Source of the DNA: Desulfovibrionaceae bacterium
Lineage (GTDB): Bacteria; Desulfobacterota; Desulfovibrionia; Desulfovibrionales; Desulfovibrionaceae
Length of the DNA stretch: 32,046 bases
Assembly: GCA_031082225.1 (NCBI GenBank)
Contig: JAVHLG010000043.1
Location: 1-32,046 of the forward strand
Reading direction: 5' to 3'
Shown here: positions 11,253 to 18,413 of the stretch, in pieces
Position numbering within the stretch: the first letter of the stretch is position 1
How the letters are laid out: every line of letters begins with the position of its first letter
The notes under the pieces: generated by a model
What the model was told of the DNA's origin: nothing
What the model saw: only the letters and a program-made list of their open reading frames with translations
Databases searched by the model: none
Made by a program: the position numbers and the translations under genes

Positions 11253-11274
11253 GGCCTGCGTCCGTGCGGCCTCA
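11250..11274. terminator. inverted repeat spanning both convergent stop codons
   Basis: TGAGGCC (11250-11256) and GGCCTCA (11268-11274) form a perfect 7-bp inverted repeat with an 11-base loop. The first TGA is the stop of the CBS gene; the complement of the last TCA is the stop of the HD-GYP gene. It is the only stem between the two convergent genes. No T run flanks it on either strand, so a bidirectional transcript-end role is inference. Confidence 0.4.
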
Positions 11275-12276
11275 GCGTCGTTCGTTCACCAGATGGTTGA
11301 TGAGAAGCTTTGTGATCTCGGAGGGATATCGTTTGACATCGTCGCACAGGGCCTTGGCCGCCGTCATGGGGTCCATGGCCCTGGCGTAGGGGCGGTCGGT
11401 GCACATGGCGCAAAACGAGTCGGCCACGGCGCAGACAAGCCCCAGGTCGGAGATGCCCGGACCGCTTAAATGCTGGGGATAGCCGTTGCCGTCCAGACGC
11501 TCGTGGTGGTGGTTCACGCAGTTTTCCACCTCGGGATACTTGATGTCCAGCCGGGCGATCATCTCGTAGCCGCTTAAGGTGTGGGTCTGGATCTTCTGGC
11601 GTTCCTCGGGGGTCAGGGGCTTGGTCTTGTCGCGGATAAACGCCGGCACCTTGCTCATGCCCATGTCGTGCAGAAAAAAACCCAGGGCGGCGCGGTCGAA
11701 GGGCTGGCGGTTTTTGGGTTCCTTGTTGAAATCGTCGGACAGGCGCAGGATGTGCAGCAAAATCCCCAAAAAGCCGCTGTTGACGGAATGGTTGGGGAGG
11801 TTGTGCTCCTGGTTTCGGCGTCTGGCCAGGGCCTTGATGCGTGAGAAATCCTGCCACAGGTATTCCGTGAGCGTAAACACGTCCTCCTGCACCTTGTCGT
11901 AGACCACCTTGACGGGCTGCTCGAAAAAGGCCTGCATGCGGCGGGTCAGCGCCATCTGAAAGATGTCCGCGATCTCGCGTTCCAATAGATGCTTGTCCAG
12001 AAGCACCAGGTCGAGCTGGTGGCTGATGTGCTTGACGTACACGGACTGGTCGGCCCGGGAGACGAAGATCACCCCGGCGTCCACCAGTTCCGCCAGCTCC
12101 TCGGCCTGTTCCCTGGCAAGCCGCTCCCCGACCTTGTAATAGGTGATGATCCGGGACACGTCCTCCCGGAAGCGGTAGATGTTCAGCGGCGGACGGAACT
12201 TGTTGAAGCTTTGCAGAATATCCCTGTTGATCTGGTAATATTCTTCCTCGAAGTCCTGGGGCAGATCGTCGCTCAT
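11272..12276 (-). CDS. HD-GYP domain c-di-GMP phosphodiesterase
   Basis: This 334-residue protein should hydrolyse the second messenger cyclic di-GMP. The C-terminal HD-GYP domain (about 150-325) has NHSVNSG (162-168), FLHDMGMSKVP (201-211, HD at 203-204), HHERLDGNGYP (257-267), the complete HD-GYP signature, and ADSFCAM (D286). The N-terminal 140 residues are helical with no receiver, PAS or membrane segment visible, a lead region I do not recognise. The start at ATG 12276 is chosen because the translation begins cleanly (MSDDLPQDFEEEYY) there; an upstream in-frame ATG at 12372 would add a low-complexity lead. The ribosome site is weak (AAGGACGG, rather distant). Because the signature is intact, activity is likely. 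Confidence 0.9.
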   Translation of the reverse strand: MSDDLPQDFEEEYYQINRDILQSFNKFRPPLNIYRFREDVSRIITYYKVGERLAREQAEELAELVDAGVIFVSRADQSVYVKHISHQLDLVLLDKHLLEREIADIFQMALTRRMQAFFEQPVKVVYDKVQEDVFTLTEYLWQDFSRIKALARRRNQEHNLPNHSVNSGFLGILLHILRLSDDFNKEPKNRQPFDRAALGFFLHDMGMSKVPAFIRDKTKPLTPEERQKIQTHTLSGYEMIARLDIKYPEVENCVNHHHERLDGNGYPQHLSGPGISDLGLVCAVADSFCAMCTDRPYARAMDPMTAAKALCDDVKRYPSEITKLLINHLVNERR

Positions 12277-12370
12277 GGTGCGTTCGCCCGTCCTTGTGGC
12301 GTCTGGCTGCGGTGCGCGGCCGTTTCCCGGGGGGCCGGGGGCGCGTTTATTGCTGAACGATTCTGTGTGC

Positions 12371-12399
12371 ATGTAACGGGTTTCCCTGGAATATGGCAA
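12371..12399 (-). promoter_or_regulatory. possible promoter of HD-GYP gene
   Basis: On the minus strand TTGCCA (12399-12394, 5/6) is followed after 17 bases by TTACAT (12376-12371, 3/6), about 95 bases upstream of the chosen ATG. Spacing is ideal but the -10 match is weak. If this is right, the upstream in-frame ATG at 12372 cannot be used, because it lies in the -10 box. Confidence 0.3.
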
Positions 12400-12615
12400 C
12401 CCCGGCGGGCGGTTTTCGCCCCTGGGGCCGCAGGATGTCTCCGTGCCGCGGCAGACCGGGGGCACGGTGTGGGGGCCGCCTTGCCCCGCTTCGGGCGCTC
12501 CCCGTCCGGGAGGCCGCCTTGGGGGGGCTCCACTTTTTTCGCCGCCGGTGCGCCGCATTCCCGCCGTTCTCCCACCTCACGGTAAAAATTCCGTCAAAAT
12601 GGCCTGTTTTGCATG

Positions 12616-12652
12616 TCCCTGTGAACTAAATCCCCTTGACAGTGAACAGGGA
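12616..12652 (+). promoter_or_regulatory. dcw promoter candidate: TTGACA inside an inverted repeat
   Basis: A perfect -35 box TTGACA lies at 12636-12641, but no good -10 follows at 16-18 bases. It sits within TCCCTGT (12616-12622) and ACAGGGA (12646-12652), a perfect 7-bp inverted repeat. GTGAAC also occurs twice, at 12621 and 12643, 22 bases apart. The MraZ-type repeats begin 25 bases after the -35, where they would overlap the -10 or start site, as expected for a repressor operator. The promoter identity is tentative. Confidence 0.4.
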
Positions 12653-12666
12653 TTGGAAGAGAAACT

Positions 12667-12722
12667 GTGGGAAAGAGTGGTAATAAGTGGAGAGATGTGG
12701 CCCGTGGTGGGTCCGGGTGGGC
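12667..12722 (+). promoter_or_regulatory. MraZ-box array: six GTGG motifs at exact 10-bp period
   Basis: GTGG occurs at 12667, 12677, 12687, 12697, 12707 and 12717, each separated by six variable bases. Known MraZ operators in E. coli are TGGGN repeats with 5-base spacers, and in mycoplasmas AAAGTG-type repeats about 10 bp apart. Here three units are strict TGGGN (TGGGA, TGGGT, TGGGC) and the others TGGNN. The array ends 30 bases before the mraZ ATG. The repeat pattern is directly visible; its use as MraZ autoregulatory site is inferred from position and the known motif. Most described operators have three or four units, so six is long. Confidence 0.75.
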
Positions 12723-12752
12723 CGAAGCGGCCCGCCGTAGCCGGGAGGGGCG

Positions 12753-13208
12753 ATGTTTCGAGGGCATTCCTACCGCAGCCTCGATCCCAAGGGGCGGCTC
12801 ATGCTTCCGCCGGAATTCCGGGAGGAGGTCTTGCGCCATGATCCCGAGGGACGCCTCATGCTCACCAGCTTCGACGAGTGCGTGTGCGGATACCCCATTC
12901 CCGAATGGGAGGGGATCGAAAAGAGCTTCATGGCCGTCAACGTCTTAAACGTCAGGCTGCGCAACCTGCAGCGGCGGATCATCGCCGGGGCCATGGAAGT
13001 GGCCCTGGACAAGCAGGGCCGCATCCTGGTGCCGCCGCATCTGCGCTCCTACGGGGCCTTGGACAAGGATGTGGTGCTGGCGGGCATGGTGACCAAGTTC
13101 GAGATCTGGGATCAGGGACGGTTTGAGGCCCGGCTCAAGGCCACGGACGAGAATCTCGACGCGGACATGGCCGAACTGGCCGCCGCCGGTTTCGAGTTGC
13201 GCCTGTAG
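12753..13208 (+). CDS. mraZ: transcriptional regulator MraZ
   Basis: MraZ is the first gene of dcw clusters and a DNA-binding regulator of that cluster, forming ring-shaped oligomers from two SpoVT-AbrB-like halves. The 151-residue product shows the two internally repeated motifs: SLDPKGRLMLPPEFRE (9-24) and VALDKQGRILVPPHLR (83-98). Length is typical. The ATG at 12753 follows GGGAGGGG closely. The GTGG repeat array directly upstream is its likely operator. It ends five bases before the first possible rsmH start, so the two genes are probably cotranscribed. Confidence 0.97.
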   Translation: MFRGHSYRSLDPKGRLMLPPEFREEVLRHDPEGRLMLTSFDECVCGYPIPEWEGIEKSFMAVNVLNVRLRNLQRRIIAGAMEVALDKQGRILVPPHLRSYGALDKDVVLAGMVTKFEIWDQGRFEARLKATDENLDADMAELAAAGFELRL

Positions 13209-13219
13209 GCCGCGTGGAC

Positions 13220-14197
13220 ATGGATGCCCGACATGTGCCCGTGCTGCTCGCCGAAACCCTTGGGCTTTTGCGCGTGGCCCCGGGCGACCGGATTTTGGAC
13301 GCCACGGTGGGACTTGGCGGACACAGCGAGGCCATTTTGGAGTCCGTGGGGGGCGAGGCCTGGCTTGTCGGGCTGGATCGGGATCAGGCCGCCCTGGACA
13401 TCGCCGGGGAGCGCCTGGCCAGATTCGGCGACCGGGTGCGATTGGTGCAAAGCCGCTACAGCCGTTTTGCCGAGGTTTTGGAAGAACTGGGCGTCGAGGC
13501 TGTGGATGCGGTGATTCTGGATGCCGGGGTGTCGTCGCTGCAGTTGGACGATCCGGCGCGGGGTTTCAGTTTTCTGGCCGACGGGGACTTGGACATGCGC
13601 ATGGGCGGCGCGACCGAGGGGGAGGCCCCGGCCGTGACGCTTTTGAACAAGGCCTCGTACCAGCGCCTGCGGGAGATCATCCGTGACTACGGGGAAGACC
13701 CGCAGGCCGGGCGTATCGCCAGGGCCATCGTGGCGGCGCGGGAAAAGCGGCCCATCACCCGGACCCTGGAACTGGCGGCCATCGTCGAGGCCGCCTACCC
13801 GGCCAGGTGGCGGGCCACAGCCAGGCAGCATCCGGCCACCCGCACGTTCCAGGCGATCCGCATGGCCGTCAATGCCGAGCTAGCGGAGTTGGAGGCGTTT
13901 TTGGAACGCATTCCGGACTATCTGCGCCCCGGGGGGCGCGTGGCGGTCATCGCCTTCCATTCCCTGGAAGACCGGCTGGTCAAGCGGGCCTTTCGCCGCG
14001 AGGCCACGGGCTGCATCTGCCCCAGGGAACAGATGTCGTGCGTGTGCGGCCACGTGGCCCGTCTGCGCATCCTGACCAAAAAACCGATCATCCCGGGCGA
14101 AGCCGAGGTGGCGGAAAATCCGCGTTCCCGCAGCGCCAAGCTGCGGGCCGCCGTGCGTTTTGAGCCGGACGTCGAACGAGAAGGAGGCAGACCATGA
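13220..14197 (+). CDS. rsmH: 16S rRNA (cytosine1402-N4)-methyltransferase RsmH
   Basis: RsmH (MraW) methylates N4 of C1402 in 16S rRNA using SAM. The product of about 325 residues has the N-terminal HVPVLLAETL and the SAM loop DATVGLGGHSEAIL. It also has DAVILDAGVSSLQLDDPARGFSF, ATRTFQAIRMAVNAEL, and the C-terminal HSLEDRLVKRAFR and NPRSRSAKLRA blocks that mark the family. A GTG at 13214 in the same frame, adding two residues, is an alternative start; neither has a strong ribosome site, so the ATG was preferred. Its stop overlaps the ftsL start as ATGA. Confidence 0.97.
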   Translation: MDARHVPVLLAETLGLLRVAPGDRILDATVGLGGHSEAILESVGGEAWLVGLDRDQAALDIAGERLARFGDRVRLVQSRYSRFAEVLEELGVEAVDAVILDAGVSSLQLDDPARGFSFLADGDLDMRMGGATEGEAPAVTLLNKASYQRLREIIRDYGEDPQAGRIARAIVAAREKRPITRTLELAAIVEAAYPARWRATARQHPATRTFQAIRMAVNAELAELEAFLERIPDYLRPGGRVAVIAFHSLEDRLVKRAFRREATGCICPREQMSCVCGHVARLRILTKKPIIPGEAEVAENPRSRSAKLRAAVRFEPDVEREGGRP

Positions 14198-14643
14198 GCG
14201 CCATGTCCAGGGAATGGGCCTTTTCCATGGCCTTCAGTCTGTTCCTCATGCTGGTGTTCGGCATGGGGCTGGTGTGGCTCAACATCGAACGGGTGGACAT
14301 GGCCTACGAGATCACGCGGCTGCAAGGCGAGATCGACCAGGCCACGGCGCTTGCGGCCAAGCTCGAAGTGGAGCGCGACACATTGATCACCCCGGGACGT
14401 CTGCGGGAGTTGGCCGTGCAGTTCGGCCTGGGACCGGCCAAGTCCGGGCAGATCCGCTGGATCGGCGAAAACGGGGAGGCCTTGGGGGAATCGCGGCGGA
14501 CGCAGGACGTTCAGGTCCAGGCCGCCACGCCTGAGGCGCACAAAGCCGGGAGCGGCAAGGACAAGGCAGGGCGCACGCCGGGCAAGGCCCCTGCGCAGGC
14601 CGCAAAACCGGCTGCCGAACCCCAGGATGCGTACGAAAACTGA
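14194..14643 (+). CDS. ftsL: FtsL-like cell division protein
   Basis: This 149-residue bitopic protein occupies the ftsL position between rsmH and ftsI. A short cytoplasmic N terminus precedes a transmembrane helix (about 9-29). A periplasmic coiled-coil stretch follows (about 35-65, YEITRLQGEIDQATALAAKLEVERDTL region), then ITPGRLRELAVQFGLGPAK, the pattern shared by FtsL proteins. FtsL joins FtsB and FtsQ to activate FtsWI. The C-terminal 50 residues are Ala/Lys/Pro-rich and probably disordered, making the protein longer than E. coli FtsL. The ATG follows AAGGAGG and overlaps the rsmH stop. Sequence conservation in FtsL is low, so the call leans on topology and position. Confidence 0.85.
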   Translation: MSAMSREWAFSMAFSLFLMLVFGMGLVWLNIERVDMAYEITRLQGEIDQATALAAKLEVERDTLITPGRLRELAVQFGLGPAKSGQIRWIGENGEALGESRRTQDVQVQAATPEAHKAGSGKDKAGRTPGKAPAQAAKPAAEPQDAYEN

Positions 14644-14685: not shown

Positions 14686-16752
14686 ATGAGAAACGGCACG
14701 AAAAAGGCAGCACCCGAGCGCGACCAGAAGCGCGTCAGGGACTGGAGCAGGGCCAAGCTCACCTTTGTGGGCGTGGTCTTCGCCATTGTCCTGACGGGAC
14801 TCTGGGTCCGGGCCGGATATCTGCAAATCGTGCAGGGGCCGGATCTGGCCAGGCTGGCCCTGCGCCAGCACATGGCCTCGGAGTCGGATCGGGGGGAGCG
14901 GGGGCAGATTTTCGACCGCAGCGGCCGGCTTCTGGCCAAGACCGTGGAATTTTCCGCCGTGAGCGTGCGGCCCAAGGACCTTGCGGACCTGGACGCCGCC
15001 GCCGCCAAACTGGCCGAGATCCTGCGGGTCAAACCGGCCTGGATCAAAAAAAAGCTCGAATCCTCCAAGCCGTTTGTCTACATCTCCCGGCGCGTGGACG
15101 ACAAAACCTCGGCCGAGATCCGGCAGGCGAACATCCCCGGCGTCACCCTGGAGGCCGAGCATGGCCGGTCCTATCCCAACCGGCATCTGGCCGGCCAGGT
15201 GCTGGGGTTCGTGGGCATGGACGACCAGGGCCTGGAGGGCGTGGAACTCTCCTTCGAGGACTGGCTGGCCGGTCGCCGGGCCAAATACGCCGTGCAGCGC
15301 GACGCCTCGGGCCGCAAGCTCTATTTCGACGCCCAGGGGCATGAACTGCGCAACCTGCGCGGCCGCGACGTGACGCTGACCATCGACTCCCAGATCCAGT
15401 TCTTCGCCGAGGAGGAACTGGCCAAGGCCGTCACCACCCACAACGGCAAGGCCGGAACCTGCCTGGTGGTCCATGTTCCCACGGGAGAGATCCTGGCCTG
15501 GGCCAACTATCCCTTTTTCAATCCCAATGCCGCCCGAAGCGTCAATCCCAGGGAAGGGCGCAACCGCTCCGCCCTGGACGTGCTGGAGCCCGGCTCCACC
15601 ATGAAGCCCCTGATCGTGGCCGCCGCCCTCCAGGAGGGCCTGGTCAAGCCCGACACCAGCTTTTATTGCGAGAACGGCAAGTTCAAGGTGGGCGCGAGCA
15701 CCATCAAGGACACCCATTCCTACGGCGACCTTTCGGTGAACAAGATCATCCGCTGGTCGAGCAATATCGGCGCGGCCAAGATCGGCATGCTGCTTGGCCC
15801 CAAGCGGCTGCACGCCTATTTTGAAAAAATCGGGTTCGGCGCGCCCACCGGACTGCCCCTGTCCGGCGAGGGCCGGGGGTTGATCCGGTCGCTCAAGGAC
15901 TGGCAGCCCATCGACACGGCCACGGTCTCCTTCGGCCAGGGGGTGGCCGTCACCCCCATCCAACTGGCCCAGGCCTTTTTGATCCTGGCCAACGACGGCG
16001 TGAAAAAGCCCCTCAAGCTGGTGCTCGATCCGCCTCAGGCGACGACCGAGGCCCCGCCCGTCCGGGTTTTCGACGCCGAGGTGGCCAGGGCCGTGCAGCG
16101 CATGATGCGCGAGGTGGTGCACGAGGAAAAGGGCACCGGCCGGGTGGCCCGGATCGAGGGAATCGAACTCGGCGGCAAGACCGGAACGGCGCAAAAGGCC
16201 AGTCCCACCGGCGGATACGGCAACAAATACCTGGCCTCGTTCGTGGCCTTCGTCCCGGCCGAGACGCCGCAATATCTGGTCATGGTGCTGGTGGACGAAC
16301 CCGAACCCAGCCACTACGGCGGCGTGGTGTCCGCCCCGGCCGTGCGCGATGTCACGCAAAAGACCCTGTCCTACCTCGGACGCCTGCCGGAAACCGTTTT
16401 CCTGGCCGCCGGGAACGGGCAGGCGGCAGCCGCCCCCGGGGGCGGGGTCCATCAGGACGATGCCGCCAATGCGCTCTCCACCGGGCCGGGGCCTGTGTTG
16501 CCGGGGGGCATCGACGCCGCCGCTGCGGAGGTGGTGCCGGTCCCGCCTGGCCTGCTCGATTCCCCGGCCATCCCCAATTTTTCCGGGATGCCGCTGCGCC
16601 GGGTGGTGGAGATTCTGGTCACCAAGGGCATTGTGCCCAAGATCGAGGGCCAGGGGCTGGTGGTGACCAAACAGAGTCCTGCGCCGGGCGCGCCCTGGCC
16701 GGGGGCGGAAAAGAAACAGGATTTCGTGCTGTGGCTGGCCAGGCCGTCCTAG
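14686..16752 (+). CDS. ftsI: division-specific peptidoglycan transpeptidase FtsI (PBP3) with PASTA domain
   Basis: FtsI crosslinks septal peptidoglycan as partner of FtsW. The 688-residue product has a membrane anchor (about 25-45), the pedestal/dimerisation domain (about 70-225) and a transpeptidase domain (about 255-565). The three active-site motifs are STMK (304-307, nucleophile S304), SSN (358-360) and KTGT (498-501). A linker rich in Ala, Gly and Pro (about 575-620) leads to one PASTA-like domain (about 628-685, IPNFSGMPLRRVVEIL...GLVVTKQSPAPG). PASTA is familiar in Gram-positive PBP2x/SpoVD proteins and absent from E. coli FtsI, though seen in other deltaproteobacterial-type sequences. 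The ATG at 14686 has only a weak ribosome site. Confidence 0.96.
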   Translation: MRNGTKKAAPERDQKRVRDWSRAKLTFVGVVFAIVLTGLWVRAGYLQIVQGPDLARLALRQHMASESDRGERGQIFDRSGRLLAKTVEFSAVSVRPKDLADLDAAAAKLAEILRVKPAWIKKKLESSKPFVYISRRVDDKTSAEIRQANIPGVTLEAEHGRSYPNRHLAGQVLGFVGMDDQGLEGVELSFEDWLAGRRAKYAVQRDASGRKLYFDAQGHELRNLRGRDVTLTIDSQIQFFAEEELAKAVTTHNGKAGTCLVVHVPTGEILAWANYPFFNPNAARSVNPREGRNRSALDVLEPGSTMKPLIVAAALQEGLVKPDTSFYCENGKFKVGASTIKDTHSYGDLSVNKIIRWSSNIGAAKIGMLLGPKRLHAYFEKIGFGAPTGLPLSGEGRGLIRSLKDWQPIDTATVSFGQGVAVTPIQLAQAFLILANDGVKKPLKLVLDPPQATTEAPPVRVFDAEVARAVQRMMREVVHEEKGTGRVARIEGIELGGKTGTAQKASPTGGYGNKYLASFVAFVPAETPQYLVMVLVDEPEPSHYGGVVSAPAVRDVTQKTLSYLGRLPETVFLAAGNGQAAAAPGGGVHQDDAANALSTGPGPVLPGGIDAAAAEVVPVPPGLLDSPAIPNFSGMPLRRVVEILVTKGIVPKIEGQGLVVTKQSPAPGAPWPGAEKKQDFVLWLARPS

Positions 16753-16934
16753 GCTTGCGAAACGTGCACACTACGTCATCGTGTAGTAAAAAGAAATATT
16801 CCAAGCGGTTGTCAGTACGATTCGAATGCGTCGGCATCTAAGGACAGGCCTTGAGGATCCGACACAGGCAGGCCAGGCGGCCGGTGAAACGGCTGCAATC
16901 AGAAACCGGAAAAAACGCGGCAAAGGCGGACACC
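16753..16934. other. ftsI-murE gap with AT-rich core
   Basis: This 182-base gap is the longest inside the dcw run and is AT-rich around 16785-16815. A small stem ACTAC/GTAGT with an 8-base loop precedes an A-rich stretch. A TTG at 16851 with AAGGA upstream is in frame with murE and would add 28 basic, non-conserved residues. An internal promoter or mRNA processing site would fit, but no good hexamer pair was found. Confidence 0.35.
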
Positions 16935-18413
16935 ATGGACAGCACATCGGGGCACCGACATTCCACGGACGCAACGGGCCTGGCCGAGGCCCTGGCGGCC
17001 GTGGCCGGGGGCGCGACCCTGTGCGTGCATTCGGGCCGGGTCGTGCCCGGGTCGGTCTTCGTGGCGCTTGCTGCCGACCCGTCCGCCGCAAGTGCGCATG
17101 CGGCCGAGGCCGTGTCCCGGGGGGCGTCCCTGGTGGTGGCCGGTCCCGGCCTGGCCCTGCCCCGGGAGGGCGCGGCCCGGCTGGTCACGACACAACATCC
17201 CCGCCTGGCCCTGGGGGAATTGGCCAAGGCCGCCCATGGCCCTGATTTTTCGGGTTTTTCCCTGGTCGGGGTCACGGGCACCAACGGCAAGACCACGGTC
17301 TGCTTCCTGGTGGAGCATCTGCTGTTAAGCGCCGGCCTGCCCACGGGCCTGCTCGGCACCGTGGCCTACCGCTGGCCCGGCGGATCGCGCCCGGCCACCC
17401 TGACCACCCCGGGATGCCTTGACCTGCACGAACTGTTTGCCGAGATGATCGCGGCCGGAACCCGGGCGGCGGTCATGGAGGCCTCCTCCCACGCCCTGGA
17501 TCAGGACCGGGTGGCCGGGCTGTCCTTTTCCGCCGCCGCCTTCACCAACCTGACCCAGGACCACCTGGACTACCATGGGGACATGGAGACCTATTTCCGG
17601 GCCAAGGCCCGGCTTTTCAACCACTATCTGGCCGCGCCCGGGCGTGCCGTGGTCAATTTCGACGATCCGCACGGTCCGCGTCTTTTGCAGATGCTGCCCG
17701 GGAGCGTGGGCTACGGCCTGGGTTCCTTCGTTCCGGGCGGCTGGCGGCCGCTTGTGGGGGAGATACGCCGCCACGACGGCTCGGGTCTGACCCTGGGCGT
17801 CAGCTTCGAAGGGAAAGACTGGGAGATCGTCTCGCCCCTTGTCGGCCGCTACAATGCCCAGAATCTCCTGGCGGCCATGGGCGTGGGGCTGGTCCTGGGG
17901 CTGTCCCCGGCCGACATGACGGCCCTGTCGGGGTTTGGGGGGGTGCCGGGGCGGCTTGAGCGGGTGGTCAACGACCGGGGCCTGAACGTCTTCGTGGACT
18001 ACGCCCACACCCCCGACGCCCTGGAAAACGTGCTTCGGGCCGTGCGCGAGGTGACGGCGGGACGCCTGTTCGTGGTCTTCGGCTGCGGCGGCGACCGCGA
18101 CCGGGCCAAGCGGCCGCTCATGGCCGCCGCCGTGGCCGGTCACGCCGATGTGGCGGTTTTGACCTCGGACAACCCGCGCCACGAAGACCCCGAGGCCATC
18201 ATGGACGACGCCCGGCCCGGGCTTGCCGGGGCGGCCAGGGTTTTGGAAAACCCCGACCGTCGCGCGGCCATCAGCATGGCCCTGGCCGGGATGACGCCCG
18301 AAGACGTGTTGGTGGTGGCCGGGAAGGGGCATGAGGCCTATCAGCAGATCGGGGATGCGAAACTGCCGTTTCACGACGCCACGGTCGTGAGGGAGCTTGC
18401 CCGGTGCGCATGA
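16935..18413 (+). CDS. murE: UDP-MurNAc-L-Ala-D-Glu:meso-diaminopimelate ligase MurE
   Basis: MurE adds the third stem-peptide residue in the cytoplasm, using ATP. The 492-residue product has the ATP loop GVTGTNGKTT (about 112-121), MEASSHALDQDRV, the LTQDHLDYHGDMETY block and RLERV...VDYAHTPDALENVL. The DNPR motif (412-415) is the signature for meso-DAP rather than lysine. In the N-terminal UDP-binding domain the usual DSR motif reads HSGR (32-35), an unusual variant. The ATG at 16935 was chosen because it has AAGGCGG upstream and matches normal N-terminal length; an in-frame TTG at 16851 is less likely. The stop overlaps the murF start region. Confidence 0.97.
   Translation: MDSTSGHRHSTDATGLAEALAAVAGGATLCVHSGRVVPGSVFVALAADPSAASAHAAEAVSRGASLVVAGPGLALPREGAARLVTTQHPRLALGELAKAAHGPDFSGFSLVGVTGTNGKTTVCFLVEHLLLSAGLPTGLLGTVAYRWPGGSRPATLTTPGCLDLHELFAEMIAAGTRAAVMEASSHALDQDRVAGLSFSAAAFTNLTQDHLDYHGDMETYFRAKARLFNHYLAAPGRAVVNFDDPHGPRLLQMLPGSVGYGLGSFVPGGWRPLVGEIRRHDGSGLTLGVSFEGKDWEIVSPLVGRYNAQNLLAAMGVGLVLGLSPADMTALSGFGGVPGRLERVVNDRGLNVFVDYAHTPDALENVLRAVREVTAGRLFVVFGCGGDRDRAKRPLMAAAVAGHADVAVLTSDNPRHEDPEAIMDDARPGLAGAARVLENPDRRAAISMALAGMTPEDVLVVAGKGHEAYQQIGDAKLPFHDATVVRELARCA

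Follow-up and report, generated by a model that had tools for sequence, protein, structure and literature searches.

Six GTGG motifs spaced at exactly 10 bp lie upstream of mraZ in the 32,046-nucleotide stretch of Desulfovibrionaceae DNA analyzed here (the window). They are best explained as the operator through which MraZ would act on the promoter of the dcw cluster (mraZ-rsmH-ftsL-ftsI-murE), a reading that we hold with a probability of about 0.88. It draws on the array itself, its period, its conservation, its spacing from the promoter, the mraZ gene and the fold of the MraZ monomer; by analogy with relatives, MraZ would bind the array and repress the dcw cluster. Taken on its own, the array is an ordinary operator, modestly extended: the widespread MraZ operator is already known, and what this genus shows is a small variation, three extra and looser copies. 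In a great many bacteria, MraZ leads the genes for cell division and wall synthesis, and the literature matches listed offer no explanation of why its box number varies. Natural arrays of two to six boxes in close relatives, at mostly fixed promoter spacing, provide a ready series for relating box number to affinity or repression.

The array, its promoter and MraZ

The GTGG cores open the six repeats of Table 1 at exact 10-bp steps, so that the array runs from its first base at 12667 to its last at 12720; an additional GTGG at 12704 is out of phase with it. The array is real and far beyond chance. When the 153 bp preceding mraZ were shuffled 5000 times with dinucleotides preserved, no 10-bp GTGG chain exceeded three members, a length reached in four shuffles; shuffling the complete window 100 times and counting both strands likewise gave three at most. 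The pattern GTGGN6GTGGN6GTGG has five exact matches in the 4.08-Mb genome, four of them within the array upstream of mraZ, and its backward control has one. When two mismatches are allowed, the three-box pattern occurs seven times in the window against 8.3 expected, which is not above chance, so that the strength of the array lies in its exactness and length. Both the strict period and the position given by the first-pass annotation, between the putative dcw promoter and mraZ, are thus borne out, the array lying between TTGACA and the mraZ ATG at 12753.

Elsewhere in the genome, the exact three-box pattern is found once (C71:1031-1054, minus strand), with spacers rich in GC, and we take this match for a chance occurrence. 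The two-box pattern GTGGDRRNNNGTGGDRR is found at seven places in the same genome, two of them in the array, against three for its backward control, and the genome therefore offers no convincing second MraZ target.

Table 1. Features of the mraZ promoter region and the dcw cluster in the window
Feature	Position	Strand	Basis
-35-like TTGACA, mraZ/dcw promoter	12636..12641	+	sequence; conserved spacing to box 1
weak -10-like hexamer GAGAAA, 17 bp past TTGACA	12659..12664	+	sequence; position inferred from relatives (e.g., L027)
putative MraZ box 1, GTGGGAAAGA, full box	12667..12676	+	box-model score 12.1
putative MraZ box 2, GTGGTAATAA, full box	12677..12686	+	box-model score 12.4
putative MraZ box 3, GTGGAGAGAT, full box	12687..12696	+	box-model score 6.7
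core-only repeat 4, GTGGCCCGTG	12697..12706	+	score -4.9; core in G001 and G002, spacer diverged in G002
core-only repeat 5, GTGGGTCCGG	12707..12716	+	score -1.7; core in G001 and G002
core-only repeat 6, GTGGGCCGAA, also hairpin 5' arm	12717..12726	+	score 2.1; core in G001, not in G002
mraZ, 151 aa, first gene of dcw; product homologous to MraZ, the dcw repressor	12753..13208	+	PF02381, TIGR00242, AF2 model
rsmH (mraW)	13214..14197	+	PF01795, TIGR00006
ftsL-like	14194..14643	+	weak NCBIfam FtsL matches below cut-off; position; without Pfam match
penicillin-binding protein with PASTA domain, ftsI position	14686..16752	+	PF00905, PF03717, PF03793
murE ORF, start codon provisional	16851..18413	+	NF001124, TIGR01085

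The array starts 2 bp past the -10-like hexamer, which matches TATAAT at three of six positions, and a promoter scan listed nothing, including no call for this -10 of mraZ. If this poor hexamer is the -10, transcription would start near 12671. An inverted repeat, TCCCTGTGAACT (12616-12627) and AGTGAACAGGGA (12641-12652), straddles the -35 element; it was rejected as a second operator, its left arm being missing in G001 and G002, the other two genomes found of the genus. On the minus strand, a divergent ORF at 11272-12558 with an HD domain (PF13487) and an uncertain start codon suggests that a second, opposite promoter may sit upstream of mraZ.

The MraZ encoded in the window carries two D-x-x-x-R motifs, DPKGR and DKQGR, which we take to be the DNA-binding motifs of the family, and residues D11, R15, D86 and R90 are kept and invariant in 13 sequences. 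It matches PF02381 in two stretches, as two domain copies (E 6.5e-26, 90.5 bits), and TIGR00242 at 113.1 bits (cut-off 98.35), while its AlphaFold (AF2) monomer model, with a pLDDT of 93.6, aligns to 1n0e at Z 20.7.

In the mechanism that we propose, a ring-forming MraZ (the ring is known in relatives) would set neighboring subunits on successive boxes, and the 10-bp period would place these boxes on one face of the helix, one subunit per turn. MraZ would thereby cover the start site and the DNA immediately past the -10 region, and would repress its own operon, mraZ included. Boxes 1-3 would be the main site, and the core-only repeats 4-6 of this genus would add weaker contacts and extend the complex into the leader, with an effect at which we can only guess.

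Conservation and length of the array in relatives

We read 141 mraZ loci of the order Desulfovibrionales, which has an MraZ match in at least 288 genomes; weaker MraZ matches were taken up only in part, for 28 genomes. The mraZ start was recognized in 139 loci for the main counts, leaving out L128 (start not recognized) and L064 (too short), and the period control (116 loci), box model (127 loci), flank test and promoter distances use sets smaller than 139. Of the 139 loci, 110 have three or more GTGG before mraZ at exact 10-bp steps: three in 91, four in 16, five in one and six in two. The remaining 29 have fewer than three exact copies (two in 20, one in nine). Three repeats are therefore typical of the order and six is an unusual number. 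The period is specific, since at least three GTGG are found at period 10 in 96 of 116 loci, at periods 5-9 and 11-19 in none of the 116, and in four at period 20, which is a multiple of 10. Beyond the order, 30 loci of the phylum carry four GTGG (2 loci), three (13), two (12) or one (3), a set in which L205, wrongly cut at a contig end, is counted as having one.

The distance to the promoter is also conserved. From the start of TTGAC[ATC] to box 1 it measures 28-32 bp in 88 of the 118 order loci with at least two boxes, with another value in 20 and the element not found in 10; in all three members of the array's genus it is 31 bp. Comparison of upstream regions thus gives strong support to the operator role put forward in the first-pass annotation. 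As for the alignment of relatives that it proposed as a check, the 10-bp periodicity is conserved, so that its refuting case of an absent period is not observed, and the number of repeats is not conserved. Four exact 10-bp boxes are found in the 7/7 loci read of genus g2 (L057, L063, L081, L114, L117, L132 and L147), each with a GCG-containing spacer after box 1.

A search for exact 10-bp arrays of five or more boxes covered 675 different genomes: 297 from the order and 395 from the phylum, with 17 in both sets. The three genomes found of the array's genus, G000, G001 and G002, were alone in having such arrays at mraZ, with exact counts of 6, 6 and 5; the other matches, in G094 and G311, do not lie at mraZ and consist of near-identical units in a run. 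Exact arrays of five or six therefore look like a genus trait. This search requires exact 10-bp steps and so misses arrays of mixed 10/11-bp steps. In genus g3 of the same family, G166 (L123) has six perfect GTGG cores upstream of mraZ at steps of 11, 10, 10, 11 and 11 bp, compared with exact 10-bp steps in the window, and G091 (L129) has five perfect cores at mixed 10/11-bp steps and a sixth at a longer step, which suggests that long arrays probably arose more than once. Five further genera (g7, g8, g18, g13 and g28; L139, L143, L145, L108 and L160) appear to carry about five boxes upstream of mraZ, partly recognized by eye, in which the cores are degenerate (GTGT, GGGG, GTAT) and steps of 10 and 11 bp are mixed.

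The points that count against the operator reading include the poor -10, the 29 loci with fewer than three exact repeats, the low scores of repeats 4-6 and the size of the genus sample, three genomes.

Full boxes and core-only repeats

The six repeats are not equivalent. A box model built on 297 boxes from 39 other genera describes a box as GTGG, then T or G, then an A-rich tail. By the consensus of the family, boxes 1-3 of the window have such tails and repeats 4-6 do not, retaining the GTGG core alone. The best-scoring chain of boxes ends at box 3 in the window and in G002, and reaches repeat 6 in G001.

Boxes 1-3 alone could therefore be the operator, and repeats 4-6 leftovers or by-products of a G-rich leader, hairpin included, that MraZ does not read. 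We give this somewhat less than an even chance. The sharp fall of the box-model score past box 3 speaks for it, as does the norm of three boxes in the order (91/139), and repeat 6 falls within the arm of a leader hairpin here and is out of phase in G002. On the other hand, cores 4 and 5 stand in exact register in 3/3 members of the genus despite the spacer differences of G002: in a comparison of G000 with G002, repeats 4-5 share 8 of 8 core positions and 3 of 12 spacer positions (Fisher 0.0014). With the out-of-phase repeat 6 counted in, the figures for repeats 4-6 become 9 of 12 for cores and 6 of 18 for spacers (hand count). Between G000 and G001, the same repeats show 12 of 12 core and 12 of 18 spacer identities, a difference that is not significant (p 0.057). 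Chance also accounts poorly for the extra cores, 10-bp chains of more than three being found in 0/5000 shuffles.

A further argument against a strict limit of three boxes comes from other genera, where partial cores, matching at 3/4 letters, are overrepresented one helical turn outside the array. In 97 loci from 39 other genera with arrays of at least three, weighted by genus, such cores stand one turn downstream in 23.6% of cases versus 5.4% at other offsets, and one turn upstream in 27.1% versus 7.4% (bootstrap difference 0.060-0.318 downstream and 0.080-0.332 upstream). Two turns out they are little enriched (8.2% and 9.6%), with 15.6% at 21 bp upstream. Altogether, repeats 4-6 may make weak extra contacts with MraZ or may have no role, and we put the odds at about even. 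It is also conceivable, but rather unlikely, that five or six successive boxes are engaged in this genus by a single MraZ ring or by two neighboring rings, with repeats 4-6 as low-affinity steps that extend the complex by ∼30 bp into the leader and lead to graded repression or to a roadblock that hinders elongation across the entire dcw cluster.

Described MraZ operators and other readings of the array

Described MraZ operators have three or four repeats, and the array of the window consists of three full boxes plus three core-only repeats. The repeats of E. coli MraZ are written in the form TGGGN. In Escherichia coli K-12, the array before mraZ reads GTGGgaaattGTGGggcaaaGTGGgaataa, with three GTGG at 10 bp. 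It is the same GTGG array, so the two forms named by the first-pass annotation (TGGGN in E. coli, AAAGTG-type in mycoplasmas) differ mainly in consensus notation, and the suggestion of the first-pass annotation that the array bridges two consensus forms is unsupported. Its description of the array as longer than known operators stands for the exact core counts of the genus, with the qualifications that three of the six repeats are core-only and that six or five cores occur, at mixed 10/11-bp steps, in the two genomes of genus g3. The E. coli mraZp resembles the window in carrying its three GTGG at 10-bp spacing past a TTGACA and before mraZ, and differs from it in having three repeats rather than six and 37 bp rather than 31 from the start of TTGACA to the first box. 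In the portion of PMC8475190 available, the "MraZ boxes" of E. coli and repression are treated.

The available text of PMC7761207 describes, in the Burkholderia cenocepacia promoter PmraBc, four 7-nt repeats with 3-nt spacers that lie downstream of the -10 and over the start site, and reports that MraZ binds the repeat-bearing fragment; on this description, the 10-bp period is that of the window and the number of repeats is four instead of six. For Mollicutes, the MraZ site is given as (AAAGTGKN3)3 in the part of PMC5282649 available, with MraZ binding as a single octamer. As cited there, this site shares with the window the GTG core, the 10-bp period and the direct orientation of the repeats, and differs from it in its flanking bases and in having three repeats.

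By their entry titles, two structures released on 2026-02-04 hold Mycoplasma genitalium MraZ with its promoter (PDB 9r4j) and "MraZ in complex with 4 box promoter" (PDB 9sz7). The model of the window MraZ aligns to them at Z 18.4 and Z 19.1, respectively; the title of 9sz7 names a four-box promoter, and no six-box complex stands among the MraZ titles listed. The literature matches listed contain neither the paper behind these 2026 entries nor a paper on MraZ arrays in Desulfovibrionales.

Three readings other than a protein operator on DNA were rejected after testing. With a mean G4Hunter score of 0.80, the array is rich in G and could form a G-quadruplex, as proposed for the Staphylococcus aureus mraZ promoter, where the available text of PMC11796246 places a G4 just downstream of the promoter. 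We consider this very improbable here, because 12651-12760 holds no four-run G3 motif (loops of 1-12), 4.3% of the 25-nt stretches of the window reach at least the score of the array in absolute value, and the exact 10-bp spacing, which a G4 does not need, is nevertheless conserved, with A-rich spacers in relatives. A similarly slight chance attaches to the repeats acting in the mRNA leader, through translation or RNA structure, rather than in DNA. While the array would lie mostly inside the leader, whose fold is more stable than that of shuffles (z -2.9, 3/200 shuffles as good), an Rfam search up to E = 1 gave no match, the hairpin does not appear when the leaders of G001 and G002 are folded (that of G001 forms another, weaker hairpin), and both the helical periodicity and the fixed spacing from the -35 point to DNA. 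A slippage-prone tandem repeat of variable copy number, acting as a phase-variable switch, would fit the exact copy numbers of 6, 6 and 5 within the genus; we give it next to no weight, as the units are unlike outside the core and Tandem Repeats Finder, at a minimum score of 30, lists nothing.

The leader hairpin of the window is GC-rich and pairs 12716-12724 with 12728-12736 (GGTGGGCCG-AAG-CGGCCCGCC); it overlaps repeat 6 and stands just before the mraZ ribosome-binding site. The S. aureus G4 sits where MraZ boxes would be expected, an overlap that the available text of PMC11796246 does not discuss, and the reporter effects described for it could therefore also reflect lost MraZ binding.
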